Below, piece after piece: positions 2,828 through 62,740 of a stretch of 64,000 nucleotides of DNA (position 1 is its first letter; every line of letters begins with the position of its first letter). The position numbers and the translations under genes are program-made. Below the pieces are notes generated by a model, which was not told the DNA's origin, made no database searches, and saw nothing but the letters and a program-made list of their open reading frames with translations. Source of the DNA: a virus; the IMG/VR virus record IMGVR_UViG_3300025401_000022, positions 16,309 through 80,308 of that record. One strand, written 5' to 3'.

Positions 2828-2838
2828 TACTAATACGC
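2828..2838 (-). promoter_or_regulatory. GCGTATTAGTA promoter copy, primase operon
   Basis: This is an exact copy of the phage-wide element, pointing at the primase-helicase. If TATTAG is the -10 hexamer, transcription would start near 2823, about 18 nt before the ATG. On the minus strand, a TTTCAT...TGAAA-type imperfect dyad lies about 20-30 bases upstream (near 2855-2872). A similar dyad precedes the copy at 54185. Confidence 0.75.
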
Positions 2839-3706: not shown

Positions 3707-4038
3707 GTTATCTCCTTAATTAGTGGTGACTTATCCTTCCATGAGTCGGTGTCACCGTAGTCACCCCTAATCATGCTCATGCGCTCCTCTTTTCTAAACG
3801 CTGGCTCGATGGCCCACCATGCTAGGCTGGCCTCCTTGTACTCGACCCACGCGTCATTTTCTAAAAACATGGGATGGTTGAGCCCAGCCACGTCCACGGT
3901 GCACACCACGTCACTGGTGGGTTGCCACCCCTTGGCGTTCTTCCTGCGGTACTGCCCCAGCGAGACGTTGTCTCGGGCGCGGATAAAGCGTACGTATGCG
4001 CGGGTCTGTTCGTCTGTTAATTTAATCATCGTGTTCAT
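3703..4038 (-). CDS. Hypothetical protein, 111 aa
   Basis: The product (MNTMIKLTDEQTRAYVRFIRARDNV) is soluble and tryptophan-rich. It starts inside the last codons of the sigma gene, overlapping it by 17 nt, so the two are probably translated together. An internal ATG at 4029 is an alternative start. No family is recognised. Confidence 0.6.
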   Translation of the reverse strand: MNTMIKLTDEQTRAYVRFIRARDNVSLGQYRRKNAKGWQPTSDVVCTVDVAGLNHPMFLENDAWVEYKEASLAWWAIEPAFRKEERMSMIRGDYGDTDSWKDKSPLIKEIT

Positions 4039-4585
4039 CTTCCATCTTGTCTAATTGTAGGGCGTCTAATGACGTTGGTTCTTGCAACATATAAAACTTT
4101 AACTGGTTTACGCGCTTGGTTGTTTTCCCAAGCACCTTGGCCAGCTCCTGAACCGTTGGCGTTCGGCCTAGGGTCTGAGTCAGTGCACGCTCGGTGTACG
4201 TCATCTTGCGTATCTCTTCGCGCACCTTAATCGGTATGCGAACTAGGTTCTCCTCGTCGTCCTGCCCACGCTCTACCCCACGCAGGATAAACCGCTTGGC
4301 AAAGGTCGCGAACTTGGCGCCGTTCTTTGGCACCCACTGACGTGCCGCCTTGATGAGCGCCTCGTTGCCCATGCCAATCAAGTCCTCCTGAGGCGTGCGT
4401 GAGTGGTTCCACGCGGTCAGCTTGCGCACCGTGTACACCACAAAGCGCAGGTTGTGCGTCACTAGCCTGTCCAGTGCCTGCTCGTCACCTTGCTGAATGC
4501 GACGTGACAGCTCGTACTCCTCTGCCGAGTCCAGCACTGGTATGCCGTACAGTGACTGCAGGTAGTCAGTTAAAAAGTCGTTCAT
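4022..4585 (-). CDS. Phage sigma-70-family factor lacking region 4
   Basis: The 187-residue product resembles primary sigma factors: regions 1.2-2.1 at residues 1-60, region 2 at 64-106 (EDLIGMGNEALIKAARQW), region 3.0 at 115-122 (VRIPIKVRE, compare IRIPVHM) and region 3.1 at 123-173 (LGRTPTVQELAKVLGK). It stops there, so the finger and region 4, the -35 reader, are absent. In region 2.4 (KFATFAKRFILRGVER, 91-106) the positions equivalent to E. coli RpoD W433, W434, Q437 and T440 are R, F, R and E, which predicts altered -10 recognition. The start at 4585 is chosen because it overlaps the preceding stop (TAATG). It probably switches host RNA polymerase to the GCGTATTAGT promoters. Confidence 0.85.
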   Translation of the reverse strand: MNDFLTDYLQSLYGIPVLDSAEEYELSRRIQQGDEQALDRLVTHNLRFVVYTVRKLTAWNHSRTPQEDLIGMGNEALIKAARQWVPKNGAKFATFAKRFILRGVERGQDDEENLVRIPIKVREEIRKMTYTERALTQTLGRTPTVQELAKVLGKTTKRVNQLKFYMLQEPTSLDALQLDKMEDEHDD

Positions 4586-10231: not shown

Positions 10232-10242
10232 GCGTATTAGTA
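10232..10242 (+). promoter_or_regulatory. GCGTATTAGTA promoter copy, first late operon
   Basis: An exact copy of the element lies only 5 nt before the ATG at 10248. With TATTAG as the -10, transcription would begin at about 10247, giving an essentially leaderless mRNA. It starts the plus-strand late region. Confidence 0.75.
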
Positions 10243-12947: not shown

Positions 12948-12967
12948 GGGCGGATACGTCAAAAACA

Positions 12968-12978
12968 GCGTATTAGTA
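12968..12978 (+). promoter_or_regulatory. GCGTATTAGTA promoter copy, portal operon
   Basis: It lies in the 79-nt gap between TerL and portal and is followed by AATATAAGGG. The predicted start near 12983 gives a leader of about 44 nt. That leader has no strong Shine-Dalgarno sequence before the portal ATG. Confidence 0.75.
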
Positions 12979-16160: not shown

Positions 16161-16167
16161 TATTTGG

Positions 16168-16197
16168 GGCGGATTTATCCGCCACAGCGTATTAGTA
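16168..16197 (+). promoter_or_regulatory. Hairpin followed by GCGTATTAGTA promoter copy
   Basis: GGCGGA-TTTA-TCCGCC (16168-16183) directly precedes the element at 16187-16197. The hairpin has no U-tract. The ATG at 16203 lies 5 nt after the element, so the predicted transcript starts at about 16202 and is nearly leaderless. Confidence 0.7.
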
Positions 16198-17849: not shown

Positions 17850-17854
17850 TTATC

Positions 17855-19104: not shown

Positions 19105-19125
19105 TTAATACGAAAGGAATAAGCA

Positions 19126-20096: not shown

Positions 20097-20118
20097 TGGG
20101 GCGCTTTGCCACAAAATA

Positions 20119-20129
20119 GCGTATTAGTA
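20119..20129 (+). promoter_or_regulatory. GCGTATTAGTA promoter copy after capsid terminator
   Basis: The element is followed by AGTATAGGAAG. The predicted start near 20134 leaves a leader of about 90 nt before the ATG at 20224. The leader contains AAGGAATTAAAC as ribosome binding site. The capsid terminator and this promoter form a relay. Confidence 0.75.
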
Positions 20130-25659: not shown

Positions 25660-25670
25660 GCGTATTAGTG
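25660..25670 (+). promoter_or_regulatory. GCGTATTAGTG promoter copy before glycosyltransferases
   Basis: This element variant ends in G and follows a TTTTTTG tract. The predicted start is near 25675, about 68 nt before the glycosyltransferase ATG. A host-like promoter overlaps the leader. Confidence 0.65.
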
Positions 25671-32002: not shown

Positions 32003-32013
32003 GCGTATTAGTG
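32003..32013 (+). promoter_or_regulatory. GCGTATTAGTG promoter copy, endolysin
   Basis: The element is followed by TAAACTGACG. The predicted start near 32018 gives a 23-nt leader with AAGGAGC before the endolysin ATG. This sets the endolysin apart from the holin/spanin genes. Confidence 0.7.
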
Positions 32014-32040: not shown

Positions 32041-32562
32041 ATGAATAAGAAGCTATTTTTGGTAGTATGGTTGTTCACGTTGGTTTGGGTAGTTCAAAAC
32101 CTACAGATAACTAAAACAATAGAACGAGACATTGTGGCAATTACAGAATCAACATTCCAGTTTATTACCAACTTTGAGGGTAAACGCAATAAAGCGTACC
32201 GTGACTCCAAGGGCTTATGGACTATTGGCGTTGGTCACCTCATAAAAGCCGATGAAGAGTTCCTAAAGACCATTACCCTGACAGACTACGACGTACAAGA
32301 GCTATTTAAACGCGATTTAAAGTGGTGTGAAGAGGCTGTAGACGAGTCGGTAAGGGTACCCCTTAACCAGAACCAATACGACGCCCTGTACAGCCTGTGC
32401 TTTAATATTGGCGAGACTAACTTTAAAAAATCCGAAGTAGTCCAGCATATTAACAAAAATGACTTAAATGGTGCGGCAAATGCCTTTTTAAACTGGGCAA
32501 ACCCACCAGTATTAAAAACCCGTAGGAAAAAGGAACGGGAGTTGTTTTTAAGGGCGATTTAG
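32041..32562 (+). CDS. GH24 lysozyme (endolysin) with N-terminal membrane anchor
   Basis: The 173-residue product is a T4/P21-type muramidase. The catalytic triad pattern E46-(8)-D55-(5)-T61 is in FEGKRNKAYRDSKGLW then TIGVGHL. The N-terminal hydrophobic segment (LFLVVWLFTLVWVVQNL) suggests a signal-anchor-release type enzyme that holds the lysozyme at the membrane. It cleaves the glycan of peptidoglycan. The stop codon lies inside the following terminator hairpin. Confidence 0.9.
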   Translation: MNKKLFLVVWLFTLVWVVQNLQITKTIERDIVAITESTFQFITNFEGKRNKAYRDSKGLWTIGVGHLIKADEEFLKTITLTDYDVQELFKRDLKWCEEAVDESVRVPLNQNQYDALYSLCFNIGETNFKKSEVVQHINKNDLNGAANAFLNWANPPVLKTRRKKERELFLRAI

Positions 32563-32570
32563 CCCTTTTT
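32550..32570 (+). terminator. Terminator overlapping the endolysin stop
   Basis: AGGGC-GATTTA-GCCCTTTTT forms a stem with the TAG stop in the loop, followed by a U-tract. Two bases later the next promoter element begins, making a compact terminator-promoter unit. Confidence 0.75.
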
Positions 32571-32571
32571 A

Positions 32572-32582
32572 GCGTATTAGTA
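32572..32582 (+). promoter_or_regulatory. GCGTATTAGTA promoter copy, tail operon
   Basis: The element is followed by GATATAAGGG. The predicted start near 32587 leaves about 42 nt of leader with GAGGAAACC before the ATG at 32629. Confidence 0.75.
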
Positions 32583-38978: not shown

Positions 38979-39010
38979 GGGGCGCAAAGCCCCAAAAACG
39001 CGTATTAGTG
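38979..39010 (+). promoter_or_regulatory. Hairpin followed by GCGTATTAGTG promoter copy
   Basis: GGGGC-GCAAA-GCCCC (38979-38993) is followed by AAAAAC and then the element (39000-39010) with TATATAGGAA. There is no plus-strand U-tract, so it is a weak terminator at best. The predicted start near 39015 gives a 21-nt leader before ATG 39036. Confidence 0.7.
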
Positions 39011-46008: not shown

Positions 46009-48998
46009 TGAGCGACGATAACAGATATACCCCGCTACCTAAAGAACTGCATACCCACGACGCTGGGGTAACTCCCCAGCCAGTAGTTACTGAAGGTAAT
46101 GCTGGAAACTATGCCCCAGTACCGATAAACCAAGTACAAACTGGTGGTGAAGACCCGCAAATAAAACATCCTTCTGCCTATTCTGCTAACGATTACGGTT
46201 TAGTTGGAGCTGGTTTGGGTCTTACTGGCGCAGAAACATTAAATACGGCAAAATTAGCTGGTGAGAAATTGGGCATTGTTCCGCAGAGTTTGCAAAGATA
46301 TGCGGATACTCAGATTGGGCACAAGTTTAATCTCCCTTTGGAAGCATTAAAAAAGGAAGCTGGGGTGCCTTATGATTTGGAAACATACCCACTAATTCAA
46401 CGTGCAATTAAAAAGGTATCGGGTTCGGAAGCGGTTCCAGATGCGTACAAAAAAGTATATACTGTTGGCCCAAATGGTAAGCCTGTGTTTAGCCACATGG
46501 AAATTACTCCGGGCACACCTGAAGTCCCTCCGGTTGACCTTAGCAAATATAAAAGAACCCCAATGCAGATTGCAAAACACTTTGGTGAGTTGCCTGTGCG
46601 CGCGGGTGTAGCTGGTTATGATATTGGCCGTGGTCTTAGCGATCCTACTTCCATTGGTGGTTTGGCTGACATCGGCGCAGGTATTTCTGCCGCTGCAGCT
46701 CCGCTTTTAAAAGGTAAAGCAAAAACTATTGCTAACGTAGCTGGTGCATTGCCTATCGTTGGTGGTCTTATTCCAGGTGCTAGCGCTGCTCCATTAAAGC
46801 CACATGAAGTTGCTGGTACTGCTGTTGACTTAGCCACTGGTTGGATGTCACCTACTGAGTTAGGTAAAGGCACAACGCAACCTGAAAATGAAGCATACTA
46901 TCCCGGTATGACTGGTATTTTACATGGCACAACACTTCCACCCGGCCATGCCGAAGGGGGTGACATAAAAAAGTCTCCGGCCAGTATAGCTGGCACCCTA
47001 CAAGAGGTTGGTACAGTACAGGGACCTAGCCTTGCATCAAAGTGGGCTGAGCACTTAGCCTCACTGCCACAGACCACAGAAGACAATCTGCGTCACCAGC
47101 AAGACGTAATGAACCGCGCCATGCCTATCAGCATGAACAACGGCAAACTTGAGTTTGGTCAGGCTGACCCAGAGGCAATGCGCGAGATGACCGACATGGT
47201 ATCTGGTATTGGTGGTATGACTAAGGTTGTCAAAGATCCGATTATCAACGCGCTGTCAAAAGTAATGGAGCCGATTAAAAAATCTGGCGCACAACTGGCA
47301 CGCGAGGCTGAGTACGTTCACGATGTAAGACCAACACACAATTTCTCAGAAGCACCAAAAATTAGTATCCAGGACTTACAGGGTGGATACTTAGTTGGTG
47401 TCCCTGGAGATAGGTCACTGGCAGGGCACTCATTAGTATCTGTAAACGGTGTGCCGCTTAGTAAAGATACTGGATTGTACGGTGGCCCGCGTTATGGTCA
47501 GCGTAAATCTGACCTTGGTGAAGATACATTTTGGGCATCAAAAAGCGGCGCCGCAACTGCGCTGCAAAACAAAGCAAGAAGAGCTGCGGAATTAGCTGGG
47601 GATAATCCAGTGTTTGGTATGTATACTGCCATGGCACCAGACTCTTCTAACTTTGCGTTACACCACACAGAGGCTTTGGTAAATCAATTAGATGCTTTAA
47701 ATCCAAACAAAGCTAAATTACGTGCATTTGATAATATGATTCGCGATAGCTACCCAGAATTTTTGGGTATGAACCATCCGGAAGTAATGAATCAATTTGC
47801 TGCCAATTCTGAATTAAGAAAGCACGTTGCTGACAGACTAAACAAAACTAAAATTGTTGCTCAGTATGATATGCCAAGTGGTGAAGCTACAATTCATGCG
47901 ATTACTGACCCAAGTTTAAGAAACGTAAAGACTGGTTCTACTGGTTATTCTGTTGGTGAATTAAATCCTTTTGCTTCGCTGACATCGGAAACAGAACATC
48001 CGACCTACGACACAAAAATTCCGGGTAAGTTTAAAGGTCAAATGATTGCGCAATTACCTTGGGAACATTATTTCCCAGACGCAGCTAAACAGATTGCTGC
48101 TGACCCAAAACAAGCACCCTATGCTTGGGGCACCTTCAAAATGGGTGACTACAATCAACCTGTAACTCAAGAGTTAGTGGATAAGATTGCACCGATTGAA
48201 GAAATGGTTAAGTCAGCAGCCAAAGACTTTGGGTATGAAAATGCAGTAAAACAAATGGCTGCTCCAACTACCGCTGCAGCACCAGCGGTTAACCGCATCA
48301 ATATGAATTACAAAGATGTTACTAAGCGCATTCCAGAGTTGCAAGAGTCTGCACAACAAATTATGGCGGGTACTGGTTCGCGTGAGGCACATGAGGCTTT
48401 AGTAAATACACATAAGCCTGTATTACCTTTTGACTTTGTTCCTAAGCCAGCAACTCCGGAAGAGGCAATTGGTGCGCTATCAGCAGATAAAAAAGATCTG
48501 TATGGTGTCCCATCCAAAACACTACAAGCCGGTCACCCCGTTGGTTTACGTTTAGATATTCCAGCGTACTCTAATCACGGAGTATGGGTTCCGACTGTGC
48601 ATGAGCAGGCCTCTGGCTTTGGTGCCGGTAAGGCAATCGGGCATGAGAGTGTTGCTTCTGTTTTAAATCCTCAGTTTGGTATGTCAGATAAAGCAGCACT
48701 CAGTATTGCTTCTGGTAAACCAAAAGGCACTATTGCAACTATTAAAGGTAACTGGAATCCAGTTGACCAAGAGCAAGCTGTTGCAAACGCTCAAGAGTAT
48801 TTAAACCATCCTGACTGGCGTCAAGTTGGTATGGACCCAGAGCGTCATGGTTATTTTTATGATCGTGAAACAATGGAGCCAATCACACATGCCGAAGAGG
48901 CGCTGCAGATTGGCCCATTGGTCCTAGCTAAAAAACCTGTTTACGGCAACAAAGAAGATTTTAAGTTTGCTGATGGTGGTTTAGCTCACTTACGGTAA
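46008..48998 (+). CDS. Large virion protein, 996 aa
   Basis: The N-terminal half is Gly/Ala-rich (ADIGAGISAAAAPLLKGKAK). Residues about 460-760 form a folded domain (GGYLVGVPGDRSLAGHSLVS, then YGGPRYG and FGMYTAMAPDSSNFALHHTE) that resembles domains of large polyvalent phage and plasmid proteins. The end FADGGLAHLR is typical of ejected proteins. It starts one base inside the previous stop. Its 3' end overlaps the convergent polymerase gene by 13 nt. Confidence 0.6.
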   Translation: MSDDNRYTPLPKELHTHDAGVTPQPVVTEGNAGNYAPVPINQVQTGGEDPQIKHPSAYSANDYGLVGAGLGLTGAETLNTAKLAGEKLGIVPQSLQRYADTQIGHKFNLPLEALKKEAGVPYDLETYPLIQRAIKKVSGSEAVPDAYKKVYTVGPNGKPVFSHMEITPGTPEVPPVDLSKYKRTPMQIAKHFGELPVRAGVAGYDIGRGLSDPTSIGGLADIGAGISAAAAPLLKGKAKTIANVAGALPIVGGLIPGASAAPLKPHEVAGTAVDLATGWMSPTELGKGTTQPENEAYYPGMTGILHGTTLPPGHAEGGDIKKSPASIAGTLQEVGTVQGPSLASKWAEHLASLPQTTEDNLRHQQDVMNRAMPISMNNGKLEFGQADPEAMREMTDMVSGIGGMTKVVKDPIINALSKVMEPIKKSGAQLAREAEYVHDVRPTHNFSEAPKISIQDLQGGYLVGVPGDRSLAGHSLVSVNGVPLSKDTGLYGGPRYGQRKSDLGEDTFWASKSGAATALQNKARRAAELAGDNPVFGMYTAMAPDSSNFALHHTEALVNQLDALNPNKAKLRAFDNMIRDSYPEFLGMNHPEVMNQFAANSELRKHVADRLNKTKIVAQYDMPSGEATIHAITDPSLRNVKTGSTGYSVGELNPFASLTSETEHPTYDTKIPGKFKGQMIAQLPWEHYFPDAAKQIAADPKQAPYAWGTFKMGDYNQPVTQELVDKIAPIEEMVKSAAKDFGYENAVKQMAAPTTAAAPAVNRINMNYKDVTKRIPELQESAQQIMAGTGSREAHEALVNTHKPVLPFDFVPKPATPEEAIGALSADKKDLYGVPSKTLQAGHPVGLRLDIPAYSNHGVWVPTVHEQASGFGAGKAIGHESVASVLNPQFGMSDKAALSIASGKPKGTIATIKGNWNPVDQEQAVANAQEYLNHPDWRQVGMDPERHGYFYDRETMEPITHAEEALQIGPLVLAKKPVYGNKEDFKFADGGLAHLR

Positions 48999-50878
48999 CG
49001 CTTACCGTGCCAACCCTCCGCAGCAAGAGGAAAGTCGGGAGCCCACGTTGGTGGCGTCGTCATAATGCGTATGACGTCAGCCAACGCGGACTCCGCGCTT
49101 TGTTCTTCAACTAGGAGTAGTACCTCATCATGGATGCTGTTGATCACCTCGTAACCGGCTTGCTCAAGGTTAAGCATAGCCACGGCAAGACAGTCCCTAG
49201 CGGTACCTTGCACCGCGGACTGAAAAATAGAACTACCAATCAAAGCGTTCCTGCTCCACTGCCGGGTGTAAGTGTTCTGGCTGTGGACAGTGACGCCCAG
49301 CTTCTGGCTACCCCACGGAGTGGTCAGCAGCTCGAGCTCTGGCCTCTGCCAGCAGATAAGCCTGCCGCTGGGTAACTGCATCCACAATGCGTTCTTGGCA
49401 ACCTTCAGTGCAATCTTACTGCCAGCACGGAACGCAGTACCGGGATTGTTTACTGCATCAATCGAGGCAGCTTCGCACGCTGCCCACAACTCCTTCACTC
49501 GCGCATACGAACTGCGGTAACCATCTACTGCGCTCTTGGCTTGCGCCTCACTCAGTTTGACACCCATTCCTTCAGCATACTTAACCAACCCTTTAGCACC
49601 CTGACCAAACATCGCGCCGAGGACAGCTGATTTTGATACCTGGCGTTGATCCTTCGTGACTTCATCATAAGGGACTCGGTATAGGCTTTCTGAAGCGAAC
49701 ACTTTGTACTCATCTAATCCTTTCCGGAACAATTCGACTTTGTCGTTTTGTCCTGCGAGCCAAACCCCAACTCGGTTTTCAATTGAGCTAAAATCCACGT
49801 CAACGAAGGTCTTGCCGTCAGGAGCTTTGATTGCCGATCGAACCAAACTGGATAGCTCTTGCATGGATCCTTGTGCTTGCTCAAATACCAAAGGTATTGC
49901 CTGTTCAATTTGTTCATCGCCGATTGTGGGGCGCGCAATATTTTGGAGATTGAGCCCACCACGCGATGCCCAGCGGCCAGTACTAGCGCCATGATATACC
50001 AGTGTATTCCTAATACGACCATCTCGTTGTATCTCCATCATCTTAGCGTACTTAGCCACGCTAGTTTGGCTTCCTTCTTGGCGTAATTCTAACGCCCGCT
50101 TAATCACCGGGAATATGTTGCATTGCAGCATTTTTGAAACGGTCTCTGCGGTCAAATCGGGCATTGGGGCATGCGGTATCATCCTGTTAATCCATGCCAG
50201 CAATTTAGCCCTCTCAGACGGCTTACAACCGGTCAAGGTGAGGCATTCGTTGTCGATGGCTGCCTGGGCATCATTGACTGCCTTAACAGCGTTGTGGAGC
50301 TCTTCTGGGTCCACAGGAACGCCTCGAAGGTTAATCCGCTGCGTGAGGGTCCAGACATCCTGTTCCTCGGCTGTAAGAGGCCTTAAAACGCTTCCTATGG
50401 CCATCTCTGTGCGTACGTCTCCCATACAATAGTCATACATCTGTTTCAATAGTACAGGATCCTGGTTAAATGTACCATCTTTTTGAGGTTTGCATAATTT
50501 TTGAATAAGTCGTTTACCAATTGGGTCTTTTTGTTCCGACGTGCCTAAAAATATAGCAGCATCTTCCAGGCTCTGTGGCACGTTATTAGCTGCAGCAATT
50601 GCCATAGTATCTATACAACGCTCTAACCTAACATCTAATCCCAGCACATACTTCATAATGTGCCATTCAAACATAACATTCCAGCCTTGAAACCACGTTT
50701 TGTCCTCAAACATAAACATTGGTAGTGCTGTGTTGGGAGTCCACAATCTAATAGGGCCATTGTCAATGGAGTATGCCATACAAATAACCTCTGTGCTGGG
50801 GTCATTAGCATAAATATCTAAGCCATAAGTTGGTAAGTCCACGTTACTGCGAACCTCAAAGTCCAAATTAACTAACAT
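48986..50878 (-). CDS. DNA polymerase, family A with 3'-5' exonuclease
   Basis: The 630-residue product has the exonuclease motif LDFEV at the N-terminus, NVMFEWHIMKYV (Exo II with Glu for Asp) and YCMGDVRTE (Exo III). The polymerase part has motif A DVDFSSIENRV, motif B-like KSAVLGAMFGQGAKG, and motif C SIHDEVLL. It replicates the phage DNA. The ATG at 50878 overlaps the HNH stop (TGATG), so coupling to the HNH gene is likely. A GTG one codon earlier is also possible. Confidence 0.92.
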   Translation of the reverse strand: MLVNLDFEVRSNVDLPTYGLDIYANDPSTEVICMAYSIDNGPIRLWTPNTALPMFMFEDKTWFQGWNVMFEWHIMKYVLGLDVRLERCIDTMAIAAANNVPQSLEDAAIFLGTSEQKDPIGKRLIQKLCKPQKDGTFNQDPVLLKQMYDYCMGDVRTEMAIGSVLRPLTAEEQDVWTLTQRINLRGVPVDPEELHNAVKAVNDAQAAIDNECLTLTGCKPSERAKLLAWINRMIPHAPMPDLTAETVSKMLQCNIFPVIKRALELRQEGSQTSVAKYAKMMEIQRDGRIRNTLVYHGASTGRWASRGGLNLQNIARPTIGDEQIEQAIPLVFEQAQGSMQELSSLVRSAIKAPDGKTFVDVDFSSIENRVGVWLAGQNDKVELFRKGLDEYKVFASESLYRVPYDEVTKDQRQVSKSAVLGAMFGQGAKGLVKYAEGMGVKLSEAQAKSAVDGYRSSYARVKELWAACEAASIDAVNNPGTAFRAGSKIALKVAKNALWMQLPSGRLICWQRPELELLTTPWGSQKLGVTVHSQNTYTRQWSRNALIGSSIFQSAVQGTARDCLAVAMLNLEQAGYEVINSIHDEVLLLVEEQSAESALADVIRIMTTPPTWAPDFPLAAEGWHGKRYRK

Positions 50879-51333
50879 CACATATTTCCTAAAATTTTAA
50901 AAATAGGTTTCAGAGTTTCAATGCCCCATTCGTTTAAGGCCGCATTAACAGCAGCCAAAACTACTCGAGTATTTTCTGGTGAGTAATCTCTATTGTTGCT
51001 ATCTATTCTATCTAATGAAGGTGCGAATGGGTTTACATGATTTTTTGTTATGGGTTGTAAATCAAAAGGTAATCCAGTTAATTCACACCTACCCAGCAAA
51101 ATTTTAGATTCAATCCATTCTGGTGTGATAGACATAGCGCCGCCAAAACGAATTGCTCGGTGTTTTGCAGCATTATATAGGAATGAACTTCTTGATTTGG
51201 GGTCTAACAGGCGGTTGGCGTCATGTGACTTTTTACAGTCTTTACACCACCATTGAAGGCCGTCTGATGTGCTTTTCCGTTTAGAAAAACAATTCAAAGG
51301 TTTTGAGATTTGGCATTTATTGCAGGTTTTCAC
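50878..51333 (-). CDS. HNH-type endonuclease
   Basis: The GTG at 51333 has AGGAG five bases upstream. An in-frame upstream reading would run through the promoter element. The 151-residue product has CNKCQ...CKDC zinc pairs in the first 50 residues and an HNH-like end (KNHVNPFAPSLDRIDSNNRD, then YSPENTRVV). It is probably a homing endonuclease lying directly before the polymerase. Confidence 0.8.
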   Translation of the reverse strand: MKTCNKCQISKPLNCFSKRKSTSDGLQWWCKDCKKSHDANRLLDPKSRSSFLYNAAKHRAIRFGGAMSITPEWIESKILLGRCELTGLPFDLQPITKNHVNPFAPSLDRIDSNNRDYSPENTRVVLAAVNAALNEWGIETLKPIFKILGNM

Positions 51334-51386
51334 GCACACTCCTAAGGATAAAGCTGACGTATCAGCGGGAACTTCTATTCTACTCT

Positions 51387-51397
51387 TACTAATACGC
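51387..51397 (-). promoter_or_regulatory. GCGTATTAGTA promoter copy, HNH-polymerase operon
   Basis: The element directly follows the U-tract of the terminator at 51398-51419. The predicted start near 51382 gives a leader of about 49 nt to GTG 51333. It drives HNH and DNA polymerase. Confidence 0.75.
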
Positions 51398-51419
51398 AAA
51401 AAAGGGGGCCGAAGCCCCC
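51398..51419 (-). terminator. Strong terminator with TTCG loop
   Basis: On the minus strand GGGGGC-TTCG-GCCCCC-TTTTTT. It ends the RNR-DUF1289 operon and abuts the next promoter with no spacing. Confidence 0.9.
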
Positions 51420-51443
51420 AAAACTCACCACCATGTGAAATAA

Positions 51444-51632
51444 TTACTTAAGTCTATCTATTACCTGTTGCTTTTCACTGTTTGATAGACGTGTCCAAGC
51501 TGTAATCTCTTCCTTTGTTCGCTGACAGCCGCGGCAAACGCCGAAGAAGTCAAGCGAACATTTTCCGACACAGGGGCTTGCCACATCCACGCAAGATTCC
51601 AATTGAGAAGATTGAGTGGAGGGCAATCCCAT
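51444..51632 (-). CDS. DUF1289-family protein
   Basis: The 62-residue product contains ASPCVGKCSLDFFGVCRGCQ and RTKEEITAWTRLSNSEKQQV, the DUF1289 pattern with four cysteines (C-x3-C-x8-C-x2-C), likely to bind a metal or Fe-S cluster. It lies 3 nt after the RNR stop. It is unusual in a phage. A redox or host-interaction role can be imagined but is not shown. Confidence 0.8.
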   Translation of the reverse strand: MGLPSTQSSQLESCVDVASPCVGKCSLDFFGVCRGCQRTKEEITAWTRLSNSEKQQVIDRLK

Positions 51633-51635
51633 ACC

Positions 51636-53510
51636 TTAGATCTCACAGACACCGGCAGCACACGCTAACATTTGAGCGCCCTCTACGTTGTCTGTGTTCT
51701 CTGACAGCAAACTCCAGTCAATGGTTGGCATCTTAGCCTTGAGCTCTTCGTACTCTGCCTCTGTACAAGTCTCGTACGGAGCCTGACGGTATGTGCCACC
51801 GTCATACGGCAGGTAAGACACGCCGCTGATCTCGTCAAAGTGATCCCATGTCCACGCTCCTACTGATGGCCAATCCTTCTCTTCGACCGAGATGGTTACA
51901 GAAGGCTTGTGCTCACACCAGTGGCGCTGGTAGGTCAACCACAGCTGCAAGTGTGCCAGTGGTGTCACTTCGTCTCTGGTGATTCCGTCTGGGGCTTTGA
52001 TTGGGAAGCTAAACACAGTTGTCTGAGTTGGCTTGTAGACACAGTCTTCCGCTGGAACTCCTTGGCTAACCAAGAATTGGCTGAGAGGATCTTTCTTATC
52101 TCCTCGTACTCTGCGGATGTAGTATTTAGCGTGTCGTGGGTGGATTCCCGAAGCTGAGTCAACGAGCTGCGAAACTGTGCCACTTGGTTTAACACATGTA
52201 ATTGCTGCTGATACAGGGATTCCAAGTTTTGTAGCAAACTGTTCATTTGCATCTCTTGCTGCCAGGCGTAGCTCTGCGAGGAGTTCATTTAGTTCTGGTC
52301 CTTCTGTTGTAAGGAGTGGGTTATCGTAGATTCCTGTAAGGGATACTCCCAATAAGCGTTCTTCTTCGGTATTTCTTTGCCACACTTTTCGCAAGTAAGG
52401 AAATTTAGTGAAGGTAGCTTGTATGGTACCGAGTATTGAAGCGAGACGCACTTTTCGCAGCAAAGTTTCTTTGTTGTCGTCATGGCGTACTACACATTCA
52501 CTAAGATTACAGAATTGGTATGGTCGCAGAATGATCTCTGAGCACGGATTTGTTCCGAACTCATAATTTGGATCACGATGCCCGTATTTTTCAACCGTCT
52601 TTTTAGCAGCCTCCCGATTAAAAATGCCTCGTTCACCGGAATGGGAGTTGTAAAGTGACAGCCATTCTTCCATGAACTTTCCGACAGTAGGTGTTTCGTT
52701 ATACACCGCACTGTTGTTCGCAAGAGCGCGGTGTGGTGCTGTGTCCCACCATGGTCCAGCTTTTGCATGACGAATCCTTTCATCATCAAGATCAGATAAC
52801 GAGATCATTGCAGAGCGACGTACGCCACCCACTACAACCACCTCACCAATTTTACACATAAGATCGTGGCACTCTAACGAATGCAGTTTGCGACCCTGCG
52901 CGTGTTTAAACATATTAACAGCAAACTTAAATAAATCTATTAATGGTTCTGGCCCGGAAGCTCTTCCACCAAAAGTTTTGAGTCGTGTTCCGGCAGCTCT
53001 AACGGTTGATACGTCCCACTGGGGAATTTCCCCGGCGTATAAGTGTGCGATGAGAAGACGCAATGACTTGGCCCATCCTTCCTTAGAGTCGTGGACACTA
53101 ATTGTCCCCCCAGATTCAAATAACTTCTCTGGCACTTCAGGCAGTTTATTAATGTATTTACTCTCAACCGAGAAGCCGACACCCGTTCCGCATAACAATA
53201 TAAACATGGCTTCATCAAAAGATTTAACATCATCGACAGGTAAATACGAACAGTTGTAAACACATGTGTTATCACGATCTGCACTCTTTCCTGCCGTCAT
53301 AACAGCGCGCATAGACGGCATTAGTTCAAGGTTATAAATGGCACTACGCAATTCTGTTTTTAATTTAGTGTCTTCACTAATCGCTGGTGTGCGACTAAAA
53401 ATATAATTGACGTAGCGGTCTACTGTTTCATCCCAAGTCTCACGACGACCTTTGTCATCTTGGTAACGGGCATAACGGCTGGCGGCAATGTACTCTTGAT
53501 ACTGATCCAT
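51636..53510 (-). CDS. Adenosylcobalamin-dependent (class II) ribonucleotide reductase
   Basis: The 624-residue product reduces ribonucleotides for phage DNA synthesis. Motifs: GVGFSVESKYI, VRRSAMISLSDLDDERIRHA, FGTNPCSEIILRPYQFCNLS (catalytic NPCSEI), and KPSGTVSQLVDSASGIHPRH. The C-terminal CAAGVCEI supplies the redox cysteines. It is shorter than the about 740 residues of the Lactobacillus-type enzyme. Class II use needs cobalamin from host or environment. A terminator lies upstream and no phage promoter element is between, so its transcription start is unclear. Confidence 0.88.
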   Translation of the reverse strand: MDQYQEYIAASRYARYQDDKGRRETWDETVDRYVNYIFSRTPAISEDTKLKTELRSAIYNLELMPSMRAVMTAGKSADRDNTCVYNCSYLPVDDVKSFDEAMFILLCGTGVGFSVESKYINKLPEVPEKLFESGGTISVHDSKEGWAKSLRLLIAHLYAGEIPQWDVSTVRAAGTRLKTFGGRASGPEPLIDLFKFAVNMFKHAQGRKLHSLECHDLMCKIGEVVVVGGVRRSAMISLSDLDDERIRHAKAGPWWDTAPHRALANNSAVYNETPTVGKFMEEWLSLYNSHSGERGIFNREAAKKTVEKYGHRDPNYEFGTNPCSEIILRPYQFCNLSECVVRHDDNKETLLRKVRLASILGTIQATFTKFPYLRKVWQRNTEEERLLGVSLTGIYDNPLLTTEGPELNELLAELRLAARDANEQFATKLGIPVSAAITCVKPSGTVSQLVDSASGIHPRHAKYYIRRVRGDKKDPLSQFLVSQGVPAEDCVYKPTQTTVFSFPIKAPDGITRDEVTPLAHLQLWLTYQRHWCEHKPSVTISVEEKDWPSVGAWTWDHFDEISGVSYLPYDGGTYRQAPYETCTEAEYEELKAKMPTIDWSLLSENTDNVEGAQMLACAAGVCEI

Positions 53511-53544
53511 TTATTTTCTCTATTGTTATATGGTTGATAAAGGG

Positions 53545-53577
53545 CAAAAAAGCCCGACGCAGTTTCTACGCCGGGCC
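53545..53577 (-). terminator. Terminator between DUF2815 gene and RNR
   Basis: On the minus strand GCCCGGCGTAG-AAA-CTGCGTCGGGC-TTTTTTG: a long stem with U-tract. RNR then starts about 35 nt further on without a visible phage element, which implies readthrough or another promoter. Confidence 0.85.
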
Positions 53578-53597
53578 GCCCACTACATGGGTACTAC

Positions 53598-54116
53598 TTA
53601 AATTGCGAAGTCTGCTGCTGCGGATGTTGCGCCGCCTAACTTCTCACCATCCTCCAACTTCTGTACGTTGTTCAAACCACAGGCGATGCCCTTAGAACCT
53701 TGTGCATTGTATGGATAGAAAGTGATTGAGGCACGGCCATAGCAACCACTGTAGAACTCATTCATATCCATGATTGGATTGAGGTCAGCATCTACAACAC
53801 CGGGCTTTTGTGCGCTGTTGGCATTGATAAAGTATGAGCCTGCATATGCTGGGTCATCTTTCTCTTCGTCGCCGTCGCGCAAGCCGCCCTTAAGACCCTT
53901 AGGTACTGCGCCACCAAAGTAAGCAGCTGCACCTGCTTTAGTGTCTTCGTACGCCTTGGTAATCTTGGCGATAGTTTCCTTATCAGACTTAGGAATAATG
54001 ATTGATACTGAATACTTCGGTGTGCCGCCCTCAACTGATGCTTTTGGTTGGAACACGTTAGCGTATGAAAAACGAACTTTACCAGTTACGATTTTTACTT
54101 TAGTGGCTTGGGTCAT
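53598..54116 (-). CDS. DUF2815 protein (putative ssDNA-binding)
   Basis: The 172-residue product matches the DUF2815 pattern: VRFSYANVFQPKASVEGGTP, SIIIPKSDKETIAKITKAYE, and MNEFYSGCYGRASITFYPYN. The family is found with DUF2800 nucleases and family A polymerases in phage replication modules and is thought to bind ssDNA. The C-terminus is Ala-rich and weakly acidic. Confidence 0.85.
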   Translation of the reverse strand: MTQATKVKIVTGKVRFSYANVFQPKASVEGGTPKYSVSIIIPKSDKETIAKITKAYEDTKAGAAAYFGGAVPKGLKGGLRDGDEEKDDPAYAGSYFINANSAQKPGVVDADLNPIMDMNEFYSGCYGRASITFYPYNAQGSKGIACGLNNVQKLEDGEKLGGATSAAADFAI

Positions 54117-54184
54117 ACAATTTCCTTATTAACATTAGTACTGGTCTTCAATAGGTGCCAGCACGTCTAACCTTTTACTGTTGT

Positions 54185-54195
54185 TACTAATACGC
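54185..54195 (-). promoter_or_regulatory. GCGTATTAGTA promoter copy, DUF2815
   Basis: The predicted start near 54180 gives a leader of about 64 nt. A TTTCAT-ATG-ATGAAA dyad lies about 25 bp upstream (54213-54227), similar to that before the primase promoter. Confidence 0.75.
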
Positions 54196-54231
54196 AAATC
54201 AACTACTTAATATTTCATCATATGAAATAGT

Positions 54232-54489
54232 TTAAGCGTCATACAAAATACCTAACTTGCTCATTGCTTGCTTCATTGCTAAGGCCCTTAAGAAGTCTGT
54301 CCGATACTCCGGCTCTTCCAAGATGTCTGGCTCTATGGCAACAATTTCTAGGATTTCGTCAATGGCGTCTCTAATCTGCTGAACGCCTTCTCTGTATCCA
54401 CTGCCTGGTAGCGCGTTAAAATCAAATACAAACTTCTCTATTAACAGGTCCGGTATATCAAACTCCGAACCATAACACGATACCATCAT
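54232..54489 (-). CDS. Hypothetical protein, 85 aa
   Basis: The acidic helical protein starts MMVSCYGSEFDIPDLLIEKF and has IRDAIDEILEIVAIEPDILE. It lies between the small membrane gene and the DUF2815 promoter. AGGAGAC precedes the ATG. No family is recognised. Confidence 0.6.
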   Translation of the reverse strand: MMVSCYGSEFDIPDLLIEKFVFDFNALPGSGYREGVQQIRDAIDEILEIVAIEPDILEEPEYRTDFLRALAMKQAMSKLGILYDA

Positions 54490-54497
54490 ACTGTCTC

Positions 54498-54641
54498 CTA
54501 TTTTACTTGGAGTACCAGTCCCACGTTGCCTACGGCATACCCAAGGAACATAATGCCAGTACCCATGCCGCCTTTAATAAACTGGTCTACAGCTACAACA
54601 AAATAGACCAACCCCATTGCTGCTACTAACCAAGTACTCAT
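54498..54641 (-). CDS. Tiny membrane protein, 47 aa
   Basis: This short gene, starting MSTWLVAAMGLVYFVVAVDQ, overlaps the DUF2800 stop by ATGA. Two hydrophobic segments flank a Gly/Lys turn (FIKGGMGTG). AAGTCCTCC-type complement is not needed because coupling is likely. No function is known. Confidence 0.65.
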   Translation of the reverse strand: MSTWLVAAMGLVYFVVAVDQFIKGGMGTGIMFLGYAVGNVGLVLQVK

Positions 54642-55765
54642 GCAAAGTCCTCCTTCGCATCTTCTTTGGCCTTGACCAGTTTAGGCGAACCTTCTGGCCT
54701 TTGAACCAAGTCCCCCAGCCAAGTCTTAACCTGCTTGTTTAACTTCTCCAGCTGGGCCAATGACTTGAGCTTTGGCTGCTCCCAAATAACTGCTGGGTCC
54801 ATTCCCTTTTCTACTAATACTGTTGCTGCTAATGCGCTATCTGAAATCTTACGGTGCGTTGTTGTAGTTGACAGCTTGTAGCCCGGAGGCACGATGTTTT
54901 GTTCTACCGCTCGAGATAGTGCGTAATCTTCTACGTCACTAACCCAAGTACGCAACTGCTGCGCCTTGACTAAGACTTCGCTGACTTCTTCTTCGTCGAG
55001 GAGGGGCGGGTCTTTGAACTCTTGCTTGGCGAGCTCGGTGTTGAAGTCTGAGCGGGCGCGGCACTGCGCTTTCGCCCTGCAGAACTGGCACCACTCACCG
55101 GGAAGGAACTCACCGCTGCCGGCCCACGCTTTCTTGGCTTTTGGCTTGACGTAGTAGTTTGCCCAGTCGATAAGTTTGGCAATACTTGTCCCGTCAGTGG
55201 AAATGGAATCGAGGCGGGGTTGGTGGATGGTGTAGCTGACTTCTTTGATCTCCGGGTACTCTTCTTTGAACTTGGCGTAAGCTCCGAGCGCGTAGAGGCG
55301 GAGCTGCGTGTTGTCTGTTGCGGAAACGGCCACCCCCTTTCCGAACTTGAGATCACAGATTCGGATTGAATGCTTTGAAAGTATAACGACGTCTGCAGTA
55401 CCAAATCCATCAGGTACCCAGTCAGAGAAGTCCACACGCTGTTCAAAGAGCGGAGTATCGCCTTCGCCAATTTGACTACGAACATATAGAACGTAATTAT
55501 CGACGTGAGCCTCGAAGTCGTCATTGTAGTAGGGTGTGTTTTTAATGATTTCGTATTCTTTTTCATACTCTTCAATTCCAATTTGTCCATAGTAATGTCG
55601 TAGTTTAATCTCCCCAAGAGAGTGGGCCATGGTCCCTTCCTGCGAAAAATCAAAGGAGCCTGTAGCACGTTTTTGTTCGGGGAGCGTTGCCTCTAGTCTA
55701 GCTGACGGTGTGCAGGATAGCCATCGTTTGGATCCTGACGCAGATAGTATGGCATGTGCGGTCAT
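54638..55765 (-). CDS. DUF2800 / Cas4-like PD-(D/E)XK nuclease
   Basis: The 375-residue product starts MTAHAILSASGSKRWLSCTP, typical of DUF2800. Nuclease motifs: GTMAHSLGE, GFGTADVVILSKHSIRICDL with KFGKG (D...D-x-K type), and a C-terminal cysteine group WCQFCRAKAQCRA that with the early Cys may hold an Fe-S cluster as in Cas4/AddB. It is a likely recombination or replication exonuclease, partnered with DUF2815. Confidence 0.88.
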   Translation of the reverse strand: MTAHAILSASGSKRWLSCTPSARLEATLPEQKRATGSFDFSQEGTMAHSLGEIKLRHYYGQIGIEEYEKEYEIIKNTPYYNDDFEAHVDNYVLYVRSQIGEGDTPLFEQRVDFSDWVPDGFGTADVVILSKHSIRICDLKFGKGVAVSATDNTQLRLYALGAYAKFKEEYPEIKEVSYTIHQPRLDSISTDGTSIAKLIDWANYYVKPKAKKAWAGSGEFLPGEWCQFCRAKAQCRARSDFNTELAKQEFKDPPLLDEEEVSEVLVKAQQLRTWVSDVEDYALSRAVEQNIVPPGYKLSTTTTHRKISDSALAATVLVEKGMDPAVIWEQPKLKSLAQLEKLNKQVKTWLGDLVQRPEGSPKLVKAKEDAKEDFA

Positions 55766-55796
55766 ATTATTCTTTCAATTCGTTTTTAGGTATATT

Positions 55797-55807
55797 TACT
55801 AATACGC
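55797..55807 (-). promoter_or_regulatory. GCGTATTAGTA promoter copy, DUF2800 operon
   Basis: The element is followed by AATATACC. The predicted start near 55792 gives a leader of about 27 nt before the nuclease ATG. It lies 13 nt after the endonuclease VII stop. Confidence 0.75.
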
Positions 55808-55820
55808 AAATCGGGCACTT

Positions 55821-56213
55821 TTATTCGGAATATTTTTTAATATATTCTTGGGCGGATTGCATAATCTTGATTGAGTCTCTAAAGCCGCCCAGACCACGGT
55901 TGCAATGATTGCAAAGCAGCCCTCGCACCTTGTTGGTGGTGTGGCAGTGGTCTACGTGGGGGGTTTTTTCCGGCACAAAGGGCAGTTTACAGATTTCACA
56001 GGCGTTGTTCTGCGCGTCTTTCATTTGTTGGAATTGCTCTGGCATCACACCATAGTTTCTGGTACGAGCTTTATCCAATTTTTCAATACGATTTTTTTGG
56101 TAATATTCTTTTAGGCAGGCATTGCAATGGAACCGGTATCCGTCTTTCTTTGTTTTGTCTTTCAAAAATTCAGAATATGGCTTTACAATCTTGCACTTAG
56201 AGCACTTCTTCAT
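55821..56213 (-). CDS. Recombination endonuclease VII-like (HNH/treble-clef)
   Basis: The 130-residue product from ATG 56213 has KCSKCKIVKPYSEFLKDK, then CNACLKEYY, CEICKLPFVPEKTPHVDHCH, and LLCNHCNRGLGGFRDS. These cysteine pairs and the DHCH site match endonuclease VII-type enzymes that resolve branched DNA before packaging. It could instead act as a homing nuclease. The second set of cysteines is intact. Confidence 0.85.
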   Translation of the reverse strand: MKKCSKCKIVKPYSEFLKDKTKKDGYRFHCNACLKEYYQKNRIEKLDKARTRNYGVMPEQFQQMKDAQNNACEICKLPFVPEKTPHVDHCHTTNKVRGLLCNHCNRGLGGFRDSIKIMQSAQEYIKKYSE

Positions 56214-56291
56214 TGACACCCTCACTGGTAGTTGGTGGGTAGCCAGTGAGTGAGCACTGGCAGGGCCGCTAAGCCGATTCCCCTTTGAATT

Positions 56292-56687
56292 TTACTTACT
56301 TAATTTTTCGATTAGCTGAGAAACTTCCAAGTCAAAATTTACTGCTATTTCTTGTTTGACATTGGCCTTGATTTCTTGACGGTCTTTGTAGTCGTCAGGA
56401 TATTGGCCACGTAGCGCAATCTCTGCGACGCGGCTGTTAAATGCCTTGTTGTCGATGTTGGCGAGCATCATGTTTTCCCAGTACGCTTGGCCGTATGTGG
56501 TGGCCATGGACATGGTCTCGGCAAAGAACTCATCTTCTTGCTTTAGGCGAGCTGCTACGTCTTTGCTAATACCAATTGCGGCGTACATTGCCTTTTGGGA
56601 CGCACCTACTTTACCCAGTTCTAAGATGGTCTCTGCCATCTCAGGGGTAAACTTCTTTTTGTTTGAGGGTGATTTTTTAGCTACCAC
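56292..56687 (-). CDS. terS: Probable terminase small subunit
   Basis: The 131-residue product has a helix-turn-helix region (AETILELGKVGASQKAMYAA, IGISKDVAARL), a central oligomerisation helix (FAETMSMATTYGQAYWENMM) and the small-terminase-like segment RVAEIALRGQYPDDYKDRQE. It would select DNA for packaging. It is about 44 kb from TerL and on the other strand, unusual for this pair. Confidence 0.7.
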   Translation of the reverse strand: MVAKKSPSNKKKFTPEMAETILELGKVGASQKAMYAAIGISKDVAARLKQEDEFFAETMSMATTYGQAYWENMMLANIDNKAFNSRVAEIALRGQYPDDYKDRQEIKANVKQEIAVNFDLEVSQLIEKLSK

Positions 56688-56940
56688 ATTTCCACCTTTT
56701 TAGAGCTGCTGCTTTGCGTGTTGGTTTACCGTTTTCGTCCTTCATAGGACCCTTTACGCCTGACATGCGAGCGCAGAATGAATCTTTACGTGCACCACCT
56801 TCGGGTTGTGGCGCCTTTAAATTGCTGCCAGTAGCTGCGTTATACTTAGCACGACCCTTGGCGGTAAGCCCAGCGCCCTTAGACGCAGGCAGTTTTTCAC
56901 CACGACCAATTGCAAGCGATACATTTTTCTTAGTTGCCAT
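56677..56940 (-). CDS. DUF6321-like small protein
   Basis: The 87-residue product contains KGRAKYNAATGSNLKAPQPE, FCARMSGVKGPMKDENGKPT, and RKAAALKRWKC, the pattern of a conserved phage family with no known function. It overlaps TerS by 11 nt. It is basic. Confidence 0.75.
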   Translation of the reverse strand: MATKKNVSLAIGRGEKLPASKGAGLTAKGRAKYNAATGSNLKAPQPEGGARKDSFCARMSGVKGPMKDENGKPTRKAAALKRWKCGS

Positions 56941-57092
56941 TATTTTTTCTTAGCTGTCTTCGCAGCTTCTTTAAATTGTTTTGCTGTAGGCGCACCCTTG
57001 GCGCCCGGCTTGCGCATCTTCTCGCCTGAGCCTGCCTTGATGCGTGCCTCTTTAGCGTGAATGTTTGCGTATAAGCCGGGTTTAGTTGCCAT
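56940..57092 (-). CDS. Small basic protein, 50 aa
   Basis: The product starts MATKPGLYANIHAKEARIKA, then GSGEKMRKPGAKGAPTAKQF. This conserved small phage protein type often precedes the DUF6321-like gene. The stop overlaps the next ATG by one base (TAATG). Confidence 0.7.
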   Translation of the reverse strand: MATKPGLYANIHAKEARIKAGSGEKMRKPGAKGAPTAKQFKEAAKTAKKK

Positions 57093-57101
57093 AATGCTTT
57101 C

Positions 57102-57359: not shown

Positions 57360-57455
57360 GTAATTCTCCTGTGTGTGATGTGTGTAAATGCCGTCTTTCC
57401 GGCTGTCAGGCTTCTTTACGCCAAACAGAGGCGTCTCACGACGAGCTCCTATATC

Positions 57456-57466
57456 TACTAATACGC
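57456..57466 (-). promoter_or_regulatory. GCGTATTAGTA promoter copy, TerS operon
   Basis: The element is followed by GATATAGGAGC. The predicted start near 57451 gives a leader of about 92 nt before ATG 57359. The leader includes GACGCCTC...GGCGT-type self-complementary parts. Confidence 0.75.
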
Positions 57467-57485
57467 ATTTTTAGGATAAAGCGCC

Positions 57486-57728
57486 CTACTCTGGGATGAT
57501 GATCTTGCGTACTGGCTTTTCCTTCTTCTTTTGCTCTTCTTCCATCATCTTTCTAAAAGTCGGCATCATCTCATTGACGATACCTTTAGTCATGGCTTCG
57601 GCCAATAGGCGGTGCTCCATCTCCTGCTCTGCTGTCGTCTTCTTTGTCTTCTCTTCCACTGCTTGGACAATGTTGTTACCAAACTTGCGGTGCTTTAAAA
57701 ACTGGCGAATAAAGTTATCGTTACTCAT
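57486..57728 (-). CDS. Hypothetical charged helical protein, 80 aa
   Basis: The product starts MSNDNFIRQFLKHRKFGNNI and has a long charged helix ending in a Lys/Glu-rich tail (MMEEEQKKKEKPVRK). It overlaps the upstream gene by 8 nt. No family is recognised. Confidence 0.6.
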   Translation of the reverse strand: MSNDNFIRQFLKHRKFGNNIVQAVEEKTKKTTAEQEMEHRLLAEAMTKGIVNEMMPTFRKMMEEEQKKKEKPVRKIIIPE

Positions 57729-58665: not shown

Positions 58666-58834
58666 TTCTCATTCTCCTAAGTTCGTTTTCCACAGCGACA
58701 CACTCTTCCGGGCTCTCACAAACCCAGATTCCCAGTAAATCTTTATATAGGCTAGTGTCAATATCCTCCACACCAGCAATCGTTTCCATAACATATTTGT
58801 CCTTGTACTTGTGCTCCACAATAAAGTAGCTCAT
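58640..58834 (-). CDS. Hypothetical protein, 64 aa
   Basis: The product starts MSYFIVEHKYKDKYVMETIA, beta-alpha in layout, ending NELRRMRNERSSQPA. It overlaps the DUF3310 gene by 26 nt. No family is recognised. Confidence 0.6.
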   Translation of the reverse strand: MSYFIVEHKYKDKYVMETIAGVEDIDTSLYKDLLGIWVCESPEECVAVENELRRMRNERSSQPA

Positions 58835-59142
58835 AGCTTTAGTTCCTTTTTGATAAACTCCACGCCCTTAAGGAAGTGGTATCGCCAATACTTCTCAGAC
58901 ACGTTTGCCTCGAGGTGTGTTAATCCCTCTAAAAACGCCTCTAATACAAACCGCTCCTTGGCTGGCATCTTGTCTGCGATAAGGCGCTTGATGTCCAGTA
59001 TATCTTCTGCGCTCCACGGTAAGAAGGCCTCTACTAACTCTGTAGAGATGCCGTCGTTATCATCTTGCTCGATAGGGTCCAACTCCTCGTCAGATAGGCG
59101 AGGAGTTGCAGCGTGTACTTTGTGTTTGGTTTTTGTTCTCAT
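58831..59142 (-). CDS. Possible DNA-binding transcription-related protein, 103 aa
   Basis: The ATG at 59142 (MRTKTKHKVHAATPRLSDEE) is chosen since an earlier in-frame start would include the promoter element. Residues 40-100 (DILDIKRLIADKMPAKERFV, then LEAFLEGLTHLEANVSEKYW) look like a helical sigma-region-4-like arrangement (compare LPxxxRxVLxxxxxGxTxxEIA). The similarity is weak, and the turn and recognition helix differ. It could be a separate -35-type or activator component. Confidence 0.5.
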   Translation of the reverse strand: MRTKTKHKVHAATPRLSDEELDPIEQDDNDGISTELVEAFLPWSAEDILDIKRLIADKMPAKERFVLEAFLEGLTHLEANVSEKYWRYHFLKGVEFIKKELKL

Positions 59143-59144
59143 GG

Positions 59145-60485
59145 CTACACTAATACGCAATTTAGGTCATCTAAAAGTGCTTCTTGCAAATTTATTTTTC
59201 CGTCTAGTACTTTTACTACCTGCTCGTCAATACTATTAGACACCGTTAGGTGATGTATGATAACCGGTTTTTCTTGCCCTTGGCGGTAGATCCGAGCATT
59301 CGCCTGGATGTAGTTCTCTGAGCTCCATGGTAGATCGAACCAGACCGTCTGTGCTGTGTTTCCAACGTTGCACTGTAAATTAAGCCCGATGCCGCCGCTT
59401 TGCGGGTGGGCAAGCAGCATACGAATTTCGCCACGACGCCACGCTTCAATGTTGTCATCGTCCAGCACCACCGCCTCTGGGAACTGAAGACGTAACCGGT
59501 TGAGGCTGTGTTTGAAATGATAGAAGACAAGCGTGGGACTTGAAGATTCTTCCATGATCGACTCAAGGTATTCCAGTTTAGAGCGGTGTACTTCGTGCAC
59601 GTCTCCTTCTTCGCTATAGACCGCTCCCGATGTGAACTGGAGCAGCTTGTTCGCCAGTGCCGCTGCTGTTGGAGCTGTGATTTTTTCTTTCTTGATGTCA
59701 ACGACCATGTCTTTTCTAAGTTGGTCATACTTACTCCTTACGTTTTTGTCTAGTTCAATCTTGTGGTATAGCTTGGTACACTCGGGCAGCTGCAGATAAT
59801 CTTCGGCCTTGAGCGAGTAGCAGATGTCCTGAATCTTCTCTTGGATTTGCATGTCGGCCCCCAGCTTAAGTTTCCAGCTGTATACCACGCGGGTGTGCCG
59901 GTTGACTTGGTCTGGCACCATGTACTTGTCCCTAAAGCGGGTGAGGCTAGTCTCTAGGCGTTGGCCTAAGTCCAATATACCCACCTGAGACCAGAGATCG
60001 GACATGCCCTGAGGGGTAGGTGTACCAGTGAGGATAATACGCCGTGAGAAGCCCTTTAAATGCTTCTTGAGTGCCTTAAAGCGCTTGGTGCTGGGATCCT
60101 TAAAGCGGCTGGACTCATCAATCACTAAGTTAGTAAACACTAACTTAGGCTGAACGTCGCAGAGCCAAGCCACGTTCTCTAGGTTAATCAGGTAGATGTC
60201 TGCTTCCGAAGTCAAGCCTGACAATCTCTGCGCCGGTGTCCCCATGATCTTGGCCACTTTGAGGTGTGACAGGTGGTCCCACTTTTTTACCTCGGCGTCC
60301 CACACCGTCTCCGCTACCCTCTTTGGCGCGATGATCAAGGTCTTGCCCTGAAATTGTTCCGCAATGATGGTGAGCGTCGTCGCCGTCTTGCCCAGTCCCG
60401 GTGGCAGAAAAAGTCCCATGTTCGGGACCGTACGGGACAAATTGATAAGATGCTGTTGGTACTGGTGCAGGTCGGAGCGCTTCAC
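59145..60485 (-). CDS. SNF2-family DNA helicase/translocase
   Basis: The 446-residue product starts at GTG 60485. Motifs: I GLGKTATTL, Ia LIIAPKRV, II LVIDESSRFK (DEAH-type box DESS), III LTGTPTPQG, IV-V VFYHFKHSL and HPQSGGIGLNLQ, and VI NARIYRQGQEKPV. The enzyme moves on DNA in replication or repair. It is small for SNF2 and is typical for phage modules with VRR-NUC. Its first 302 nt overlap the VRR-NUC frame. Confidence 0.9.
   Translation of the reverse strand: MKRSDLHQYQQHLINLSRTVPNMGLFLPPGLGKTATTLTIIAEQFQGKTLIIAPKRVAETVWDAEVKKWDHLSHLKVAKIMGTPAQRLSGLTSEADIYLINLENVAWLCDVQPKLVFTNLVIDESSRFKDPSTKRFKALKKHLKGFSRRIILTGTPTPQGMSDLWSQVGILDLGQRLETSLTRFRDKYMVPDQVNRHTRVVYSWKLKLGADMQIQEKIQDICYSLKAEDYLQLPECTKLYHKIELDKNVRSKYDQLRKDMVVDIKKEKITAPTAAALANKLLQFTSGAVYSEEGDVHEVHRSKLEYLESIMEESSSPTLVFYHFKHSLNRLRLQFPEAVVLDDDNIEAWRRGEIRMLLAHPQSGGIGLNLQCNVGNTAQTVWFDLPWSSENYIQANARIYRQGQEKPVIIHHLTVSNSIDEQVVKVLDGKINLQEALLDDLNCVLV
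59148..59158 (-). promoter_or_regulatory. GCGTATTAGTG promoter copy inside helicase 3' end
   Basis: It lies in the last codons of the SNF2 helicase (encoding CVLV-stop). The ATG at 59142 is 5 nt after the element, so the transcript would start near 59143 and be nearly leaderless. Confidence 0.7.
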
Positions 60486-62739: not shown

Positions 62740-62740
62740 T

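Follow-up and report, generated by a model that had tools for sequence, protein, structure and literature searches.

A short recurrent element, GCGTATTAGT, and a GGGCG box at a fixed distance upstream of it appear to divide the promoters of an uncultured freshwater phage into two tiers, and we put at roughly two in three the probability that the element is of the extended -10 type, that a phage sigma factor devoid of region 4 serves the middle promoters alone, and that a sigma4-like protein adds -35 reading for the late ones. We also lean, with more hesitation, towards the broader proposal that sigma is split over two sequentially expressed genes in a widespread clade of uncultured freshwater phages, and that this division is what acts as the time switch. 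In the cascade envisaged, host sigma70 would direct the early synthesis of the phage sigma, which, on the host RNA polymerase core, would read GCGTATTAGT at middle (replication and regulatory) promoters without a -35 box, including that of the sigma4-like gene itself; the sigma4-like protein would then supply the missing -35 reading, giving the same polymerase access to the late virion and packaging promoters (GGGCGN-N17-TATTAG), and putative U-tract terminators would be joined to the upstream side of some promoters (polymerase, exonuclease). If true, a temporal cascade can be made out of a single polymerase and a single -10 code by splitting sigma, and natural sigma/promoter pairs become available in number, with at least five versions of the element, to probe how residues of regions 2.4/3.0 set specificity.

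The window, by which we mean the whole stretch of 64,000 nucleotides analysed, spans bases 16309-80308 of a virus record 80,308 bases long, and a search with its first 25 kb found no isolate of near-identical sequence. It carries the genes of a tailed phage (terminase, portal, tail, family-A DNA polymerase, gp2.5-like SSB, helicase, primase, ribonucleotide reductase, and exonuclease), the structural genes running mostly on the plus strand and the replication genes on the minus strand. All records, the window's included, are metagenomic and possibly incomplete. The virion operon also holds a gene for a GroES-like co-chaperonin (16416-16856), and GGTATTTCTGGCTATAG-like repeats occur at two places (22543-22994 and 29184-29272) among the tail and fibre genes. 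Host-type promoters were not in excess in sigma-70 scans of positions 1-20000 and 44001-64000; one candidate host-type early promoter (TATAAT) lies at 9345-9310 (minus strand), adjoining a TTTCACATCGTGGAA palindrome and in front of the early leftward cluster to which the sigma gene belongs.

The putative promoter element and its fixed-spacing box

Exact copies of GCGTATTAGT number 14 in the window, eight on the plus and six on the minus strand, all oriented with the genes, and when one mismatch is allowed 17 are seen against 3.95 expected, a count reached in none of 100 shuffles. At six of the 14 sites (12968, 16187, 20119, 32572, 39000, and 57466) a GGGCG begins precisely 20 nt upstream of the GCG of the element. 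The resulting late-type promoters are found on the plus strand before the portal operon (12948..12977, where a strong hairpin is absent), at 16167..16196 (GGGCGG-N14-GCGTATTAGT), at 20099..20128 and 38980..39009 (both GGGCGC-N14-GCGTATTAGT), and at 32552..32581, where a GGGCGA box is followed by a 17-nt spacer and the TATTAG within GCGTATTAGT, and on the minus strand before ORF57102 and a probable small terminase gene (57457..57486). Elements with no box precede the primase (2829..2838), the gp2.5-like SSB operon (54186..54195), the exonuclease operon (55798..55807), and the sigma4-like gene (59149..59158), all on the minus strand, and a further one stands at 32003..32012 on the plus strand. 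The exact box is likewise absent from the element of the endoVII/DNA polymerase operon (51388..51397, minus strand; GGGCT), and it is degenerate at the terminase operon (10232..10241, plus strand; AGGCC) and at 25660..25669 (plus strand; GGACA). AATACGACTCACTA (31970-31983), which agrees with the core of the T7 promoter over 14 bases, sits at the 3' end of an ORF immediately ahead of the element at 32003; a T7-type polymerase was not found in this phage.

The spacing holds well beyond the window. Over 176 distinct sites in relatives, GGGCG occupied the same offset in 64 of its 65 upstream occurrences, and in sister clades it did so in 60 of 63. The site at 39000 is thinly sampled, since the scan with gene 39413-42694 gave only six loci. 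The arrangement GGGCGN-N17-TATTAG has the normal -35/-10 distance of a bipartite sigma-type promoter. When promoters in relatives were classed by the first recognised downstream gene, the exact box was present at 130/133 virion and packaging promoters (portal, ORF16203, ORF20224, ORF57102, ORF56677, and small terminase) and at 1/199 replication and regulatory ones (primase, exonuclease, SSB, polymerase, and the sigma4-like gene). The promoter of the terminase operon falls between the two, its box having mostly one mismatch in sister clades and at least two in the clade of the window.

T-A at element positions 16-17 is near-invariant across the box promoters, which places the transcription start probably at the A of position 17. 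An ATG stands exactly at this predicted +1 in three gene families, ORF10245 of the terminase operon (56/61), ORF16203 (16/16), and the sigma4-like gene (27/42), the corresponding window positions being 10248, 16203, and 59142, and this conservation suggests that their messages are leaderless. A palindrome of the TTTCACA-n-TGTGAAA type, located at 2870-2856 and 54227-54213 (minus strand) with degenerate copies at about 51440 and 9350, was seen upstream of the primase, SSB, and polymerase promoters in the window and in many relatives, and it looks like a candidate operator for a repressor or an activator.

A sigma factor without region 4 and a sigma4-like protein

A sigma70-family factor of 187 aa, counted from a conserved ATG, is encoded at 4022..4585 (minus strand) and comprises regions 1.2, 2, and 3 (Pfam r1.2, 2.2e-7; r2, 2.5e-6; r3, 1.6e-8; phrog_351, 3.6e-30). 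Regions 2 and 3 were recognised by Pfam in 14/14 diverse members of the family and region 1.2 in 11/14, and 68 PDB sequences match the protein, all among the matches listed being sigma factors. Region 4 is absent from the chain, which ends after region 3 in a short acidic tail, and the only trace of an r4 match was a sub-threshold echo on residues 166-193 of region 3. The gene lies in the early leftward cluster with no phage element upstream and, as time classes throughout are assigned from gene function, is probably early.

The element and the sigma factor vary together. GCGTATTAGT was found in 31/31 contigs with a close relative of the sigma, and many sister phages, whose polymerases are roughly 64-82% identical, lack GCGTATTAGT and have their own short sigma together with their own version of the element (TTGCATTAGT, TTGCATTAAT, TTGCATTATT, or TTGTATTATT), these clade-specific versions usually following a T-run. 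Another apparent sister motif, CTAAGTACG, was rejected as coding sequence of the polymerase gene, and in two records (L076 and L078) that have both the sigma and the sigma4-like protein no recognised version of the element was found. In a phylogeny of 83 sigmas seven changes account for the element classes, against 35.9 when shuffled (0/200), and the GCG/TTG difference changes once. The GCG and TTG clades are set apart without overlap at only 7/189 columns of the sigma alignment, and five of these fall in region 2.4/3.0, aligned with T440, S442, I452, H455, and I457 of E. coli sigma70. Genetic work in E. coli places the reading of the -12 position and the extended -10 in the region around T440-I457 of sigma70. 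The matching of element and sigma is suggestive, and it is not an independent replication, because the GC/TT switch occurred once and follows the phylogeny.

The candidate reader of the box is a protein of 103 aa encoded at 58831..59142 (minus strand), directly behind the box-less element at 59158. Its ORF is conserved at 54 loci (31 sister), and no homologue was found in a collection of 50,697 phage records, in which no isolate phage had one. Its assignment as sigma4-like is of moderate confidence. Pfam Sigma70_r4_2 matches 12/35 members (best 4.7e-5), the window's own copy matching no Pfam family, and the phrog_1740 sigma factor matches 11/35 (best 9e-5). The core was modelled with a pLDDT of 93.4, and the top three PDB neighbours found by Foldseek are sigma region-4, -35-binding domains, at E values (0.55-1.1) that are not significant. 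Alignment to four E. coli sigmas with hhalign was weak (E about 0.02), in the right register with RpoE only, and a PDB sequence search with the profile gave no meaningful match. Some relatives have a divergent second sigma4-like paralogue near the sigma gene (G001:C1:10493-10756 in the record of L012; 8829-9275 in L103).

This moderate assignment leaves some room for another reader of the box. The sigma could read the element, and GGGCG be bound by a different DNA-binding protein of phage or host, with the 103-aa protein doing something else, in the manner of T4 MotA, which binds a -30 motif of middle promoters alongside a remodelled host sigma70 (PMC11598898); that promoters with and without the box share one sigma within a clade would be in keeping with such an activator. 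We consider this explanation rather unlikely, although the strongest of the competitors, for the spacing of exactly 17 nt matches that of a sigma -35 box, the sigma4-like gene accompanies the sigma in every record tested (24/24), and its own promoter never has the exact box.

Hairpins and putative terminators before the element

The first-pass annotation had singled out hairpins running directly into the promoter element and proposed that they act as compact terminator-promoter cassettes. For the endoVII/DNA polymerase operon this description was exact, since on the minus strand the stem and TTCG loop GGGGGC-TTCG-GCCCCC (51419-51404) are followed by TTTTTT and then, with zero spare bases, by GCGTATTAGT from 51397, which gives a putative intrinsic terminator, GC stem plus U-tract, at 51398..51419. 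The stems at the polymerase operon differ in sequence from relative to relative yet still pair (GGGGGC/GCCCCC, GGGGAGC/GCTCCCC, GGGGCCC/GGGCCCC, and ATGGGATC/GATCCCAT), and stems of the GGACTC or GCCACC type precede their exonuclease operons. Defined as a perfect stem plus a U-tract ending at the element and counted over relatives' distinct sites, flush terminators occur at 12/15 T-rich box-less sites, against a mean of 0.3 and a maximum of three in 500 shuffles; in sister clades 40/158 distinct sites also reach the same score, some of them box sites. A strong terminator with a 12-bp stem and a T-run lies at 53577-53551 (minus strand), between the SSB and ribonucleotide reductase genes, with no promoter element behind it.

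The other units that had been likened to this one fared less well. At 32550-32582 the hairpin AAGGGC-GATTTA-GCCCTT, then TTTA as a short U-tract and the element, make a plausible terminator, but its 5' arm (hairpin 32550-32568) is also the GGGCG box. The hairpins at 16168-16197 and 38979-39010 do exist, but they are followed by ACA and AAAAAC, respectively, with no U-tract, and are not classical intrinsic terminators. In the looser unit at 20064-20129 the terminator is a good one (20066-20092), but it is separate, about 27 nt upstream, and what stands 20 nt before the element is a GGGCG box. Fusion of terminator and promoter is supported at 51397 for the DNA polymerase operon and recurs in relatives, chiefly before their polymerase and exonuclease genes, but at 16168, 38979, 20099, and 32552 it is GGGCG that is conserved and not the hairpin; the expected joint conservation of hairpin and element is borne out where flush terminators recur with compensated stems, but the box is kept where the second arm has been lost. 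Judged from their sequence, only some of the hairpins that precede the element can count as genuine terminators.

Part of the hairpin signal at box promoters is nonetheless real and overlaps the promoter, as perfect stems using the box as the 5' arm were found at 12/43 sites against 3.0 expected and at 23/86 against 6.9 (0/300 shuffles each), so that the box serves also as a hairpin arm at roughly a quarter of the late promoters. The signal is only partial, and it is on these perfect box-including stems that our verdict rests rather than on the count of strong folds (MFE <= -5), which at box sites was not above that in shuffles (12 vs 12.7); a spacer-swap null was dropped because the boxes are all identical and pairing survives the swap. 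That the hairpins themselves are the functional unit, insulating the operons, is improbable as an account of the whole: the flush U-tract terminators far above chance, the compensated polymerase-operon stems, and the excess of box-as-arm stems speak for it, but about three quarters of box promoters have no such stem, two of the hairpins first cited (16168 and 38979) have no U-tract, and the box stays conserved where its partner arm is not. Insulation of neighbouring operons by the putative flush terminators is plausible, and a warning is in order that hairpins ahead of phage promoters may be disguised -35 boxes. Finally, recognition of the element by a T7-type single-subunit phage RNA polymerase, which its similar length and TATAG-like start might recall, is nearly refuted, since the element variants track a sigma factor and neither the 80-kb record nor 11 relatives, 12 phage records in all, gave a match to such a polymerase (PF00940) under a search whose T7 positive control scored 9.9e-110.

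Comparison with known systems

In the literature searched, largely without subscription journals, we did not find one clade with both single-element and bipartite promoters and with the sigma halves on separate genes. Late transcription of SPO1 needs two phage proteins, gp33 and gp34, a likeness to the arrangement proposed here. In phiEco32, the sigma gp36, which lacks region 4, reads single-element middle and late promoters on the host RNA polymerase and is stimulated by the small protein gp79 (PMC8948821). The phages studied here resemble it in combining a region-4-less phage sigma with a small second protein, but their late promoters add a -35 box, the second protein is sigma4-like and accompanies the sigma across the clade, and the element is GCGTATTAGT instead of tAATGTAtA. 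Bipartite late promoters are shared with phage 7-11 (GTAAtg-16-aCTA), whose gp47, however, carries its own region 4 (PMC8948821), while here region 4 is absent and its candidate replacement is a separate gene.

The T4 late system offers a further likeness, with the sigma-like factor gp55 lacking sigmaR4 and a separate flap-binding coactivator in the gp55/gp33/gp45 set (PMC7892883; PMC2988020). A conserved -35 sequence is, however, missing from T4 late promoters, and gp33 is structurally unrelated to sigmaR4 (PMC7892883), in contrast to the -35 box and sigma4-like protein described here. Regions 2 and 4 reside on separate cooperating proteins in SigO-RsoA of Bacillus subtilis as well (PMC8103513; MacLellan 2009), but that pair is bacterial, whereas the present one is viral and its region-2/3 part seems to work on its own at one further class of promoters, which would yield a two-step cascade. 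Among known systems, those of phiEco32, T4, and SigO-RsoA come closest to the proposed sigma split over two genes and serving two promoter classes.
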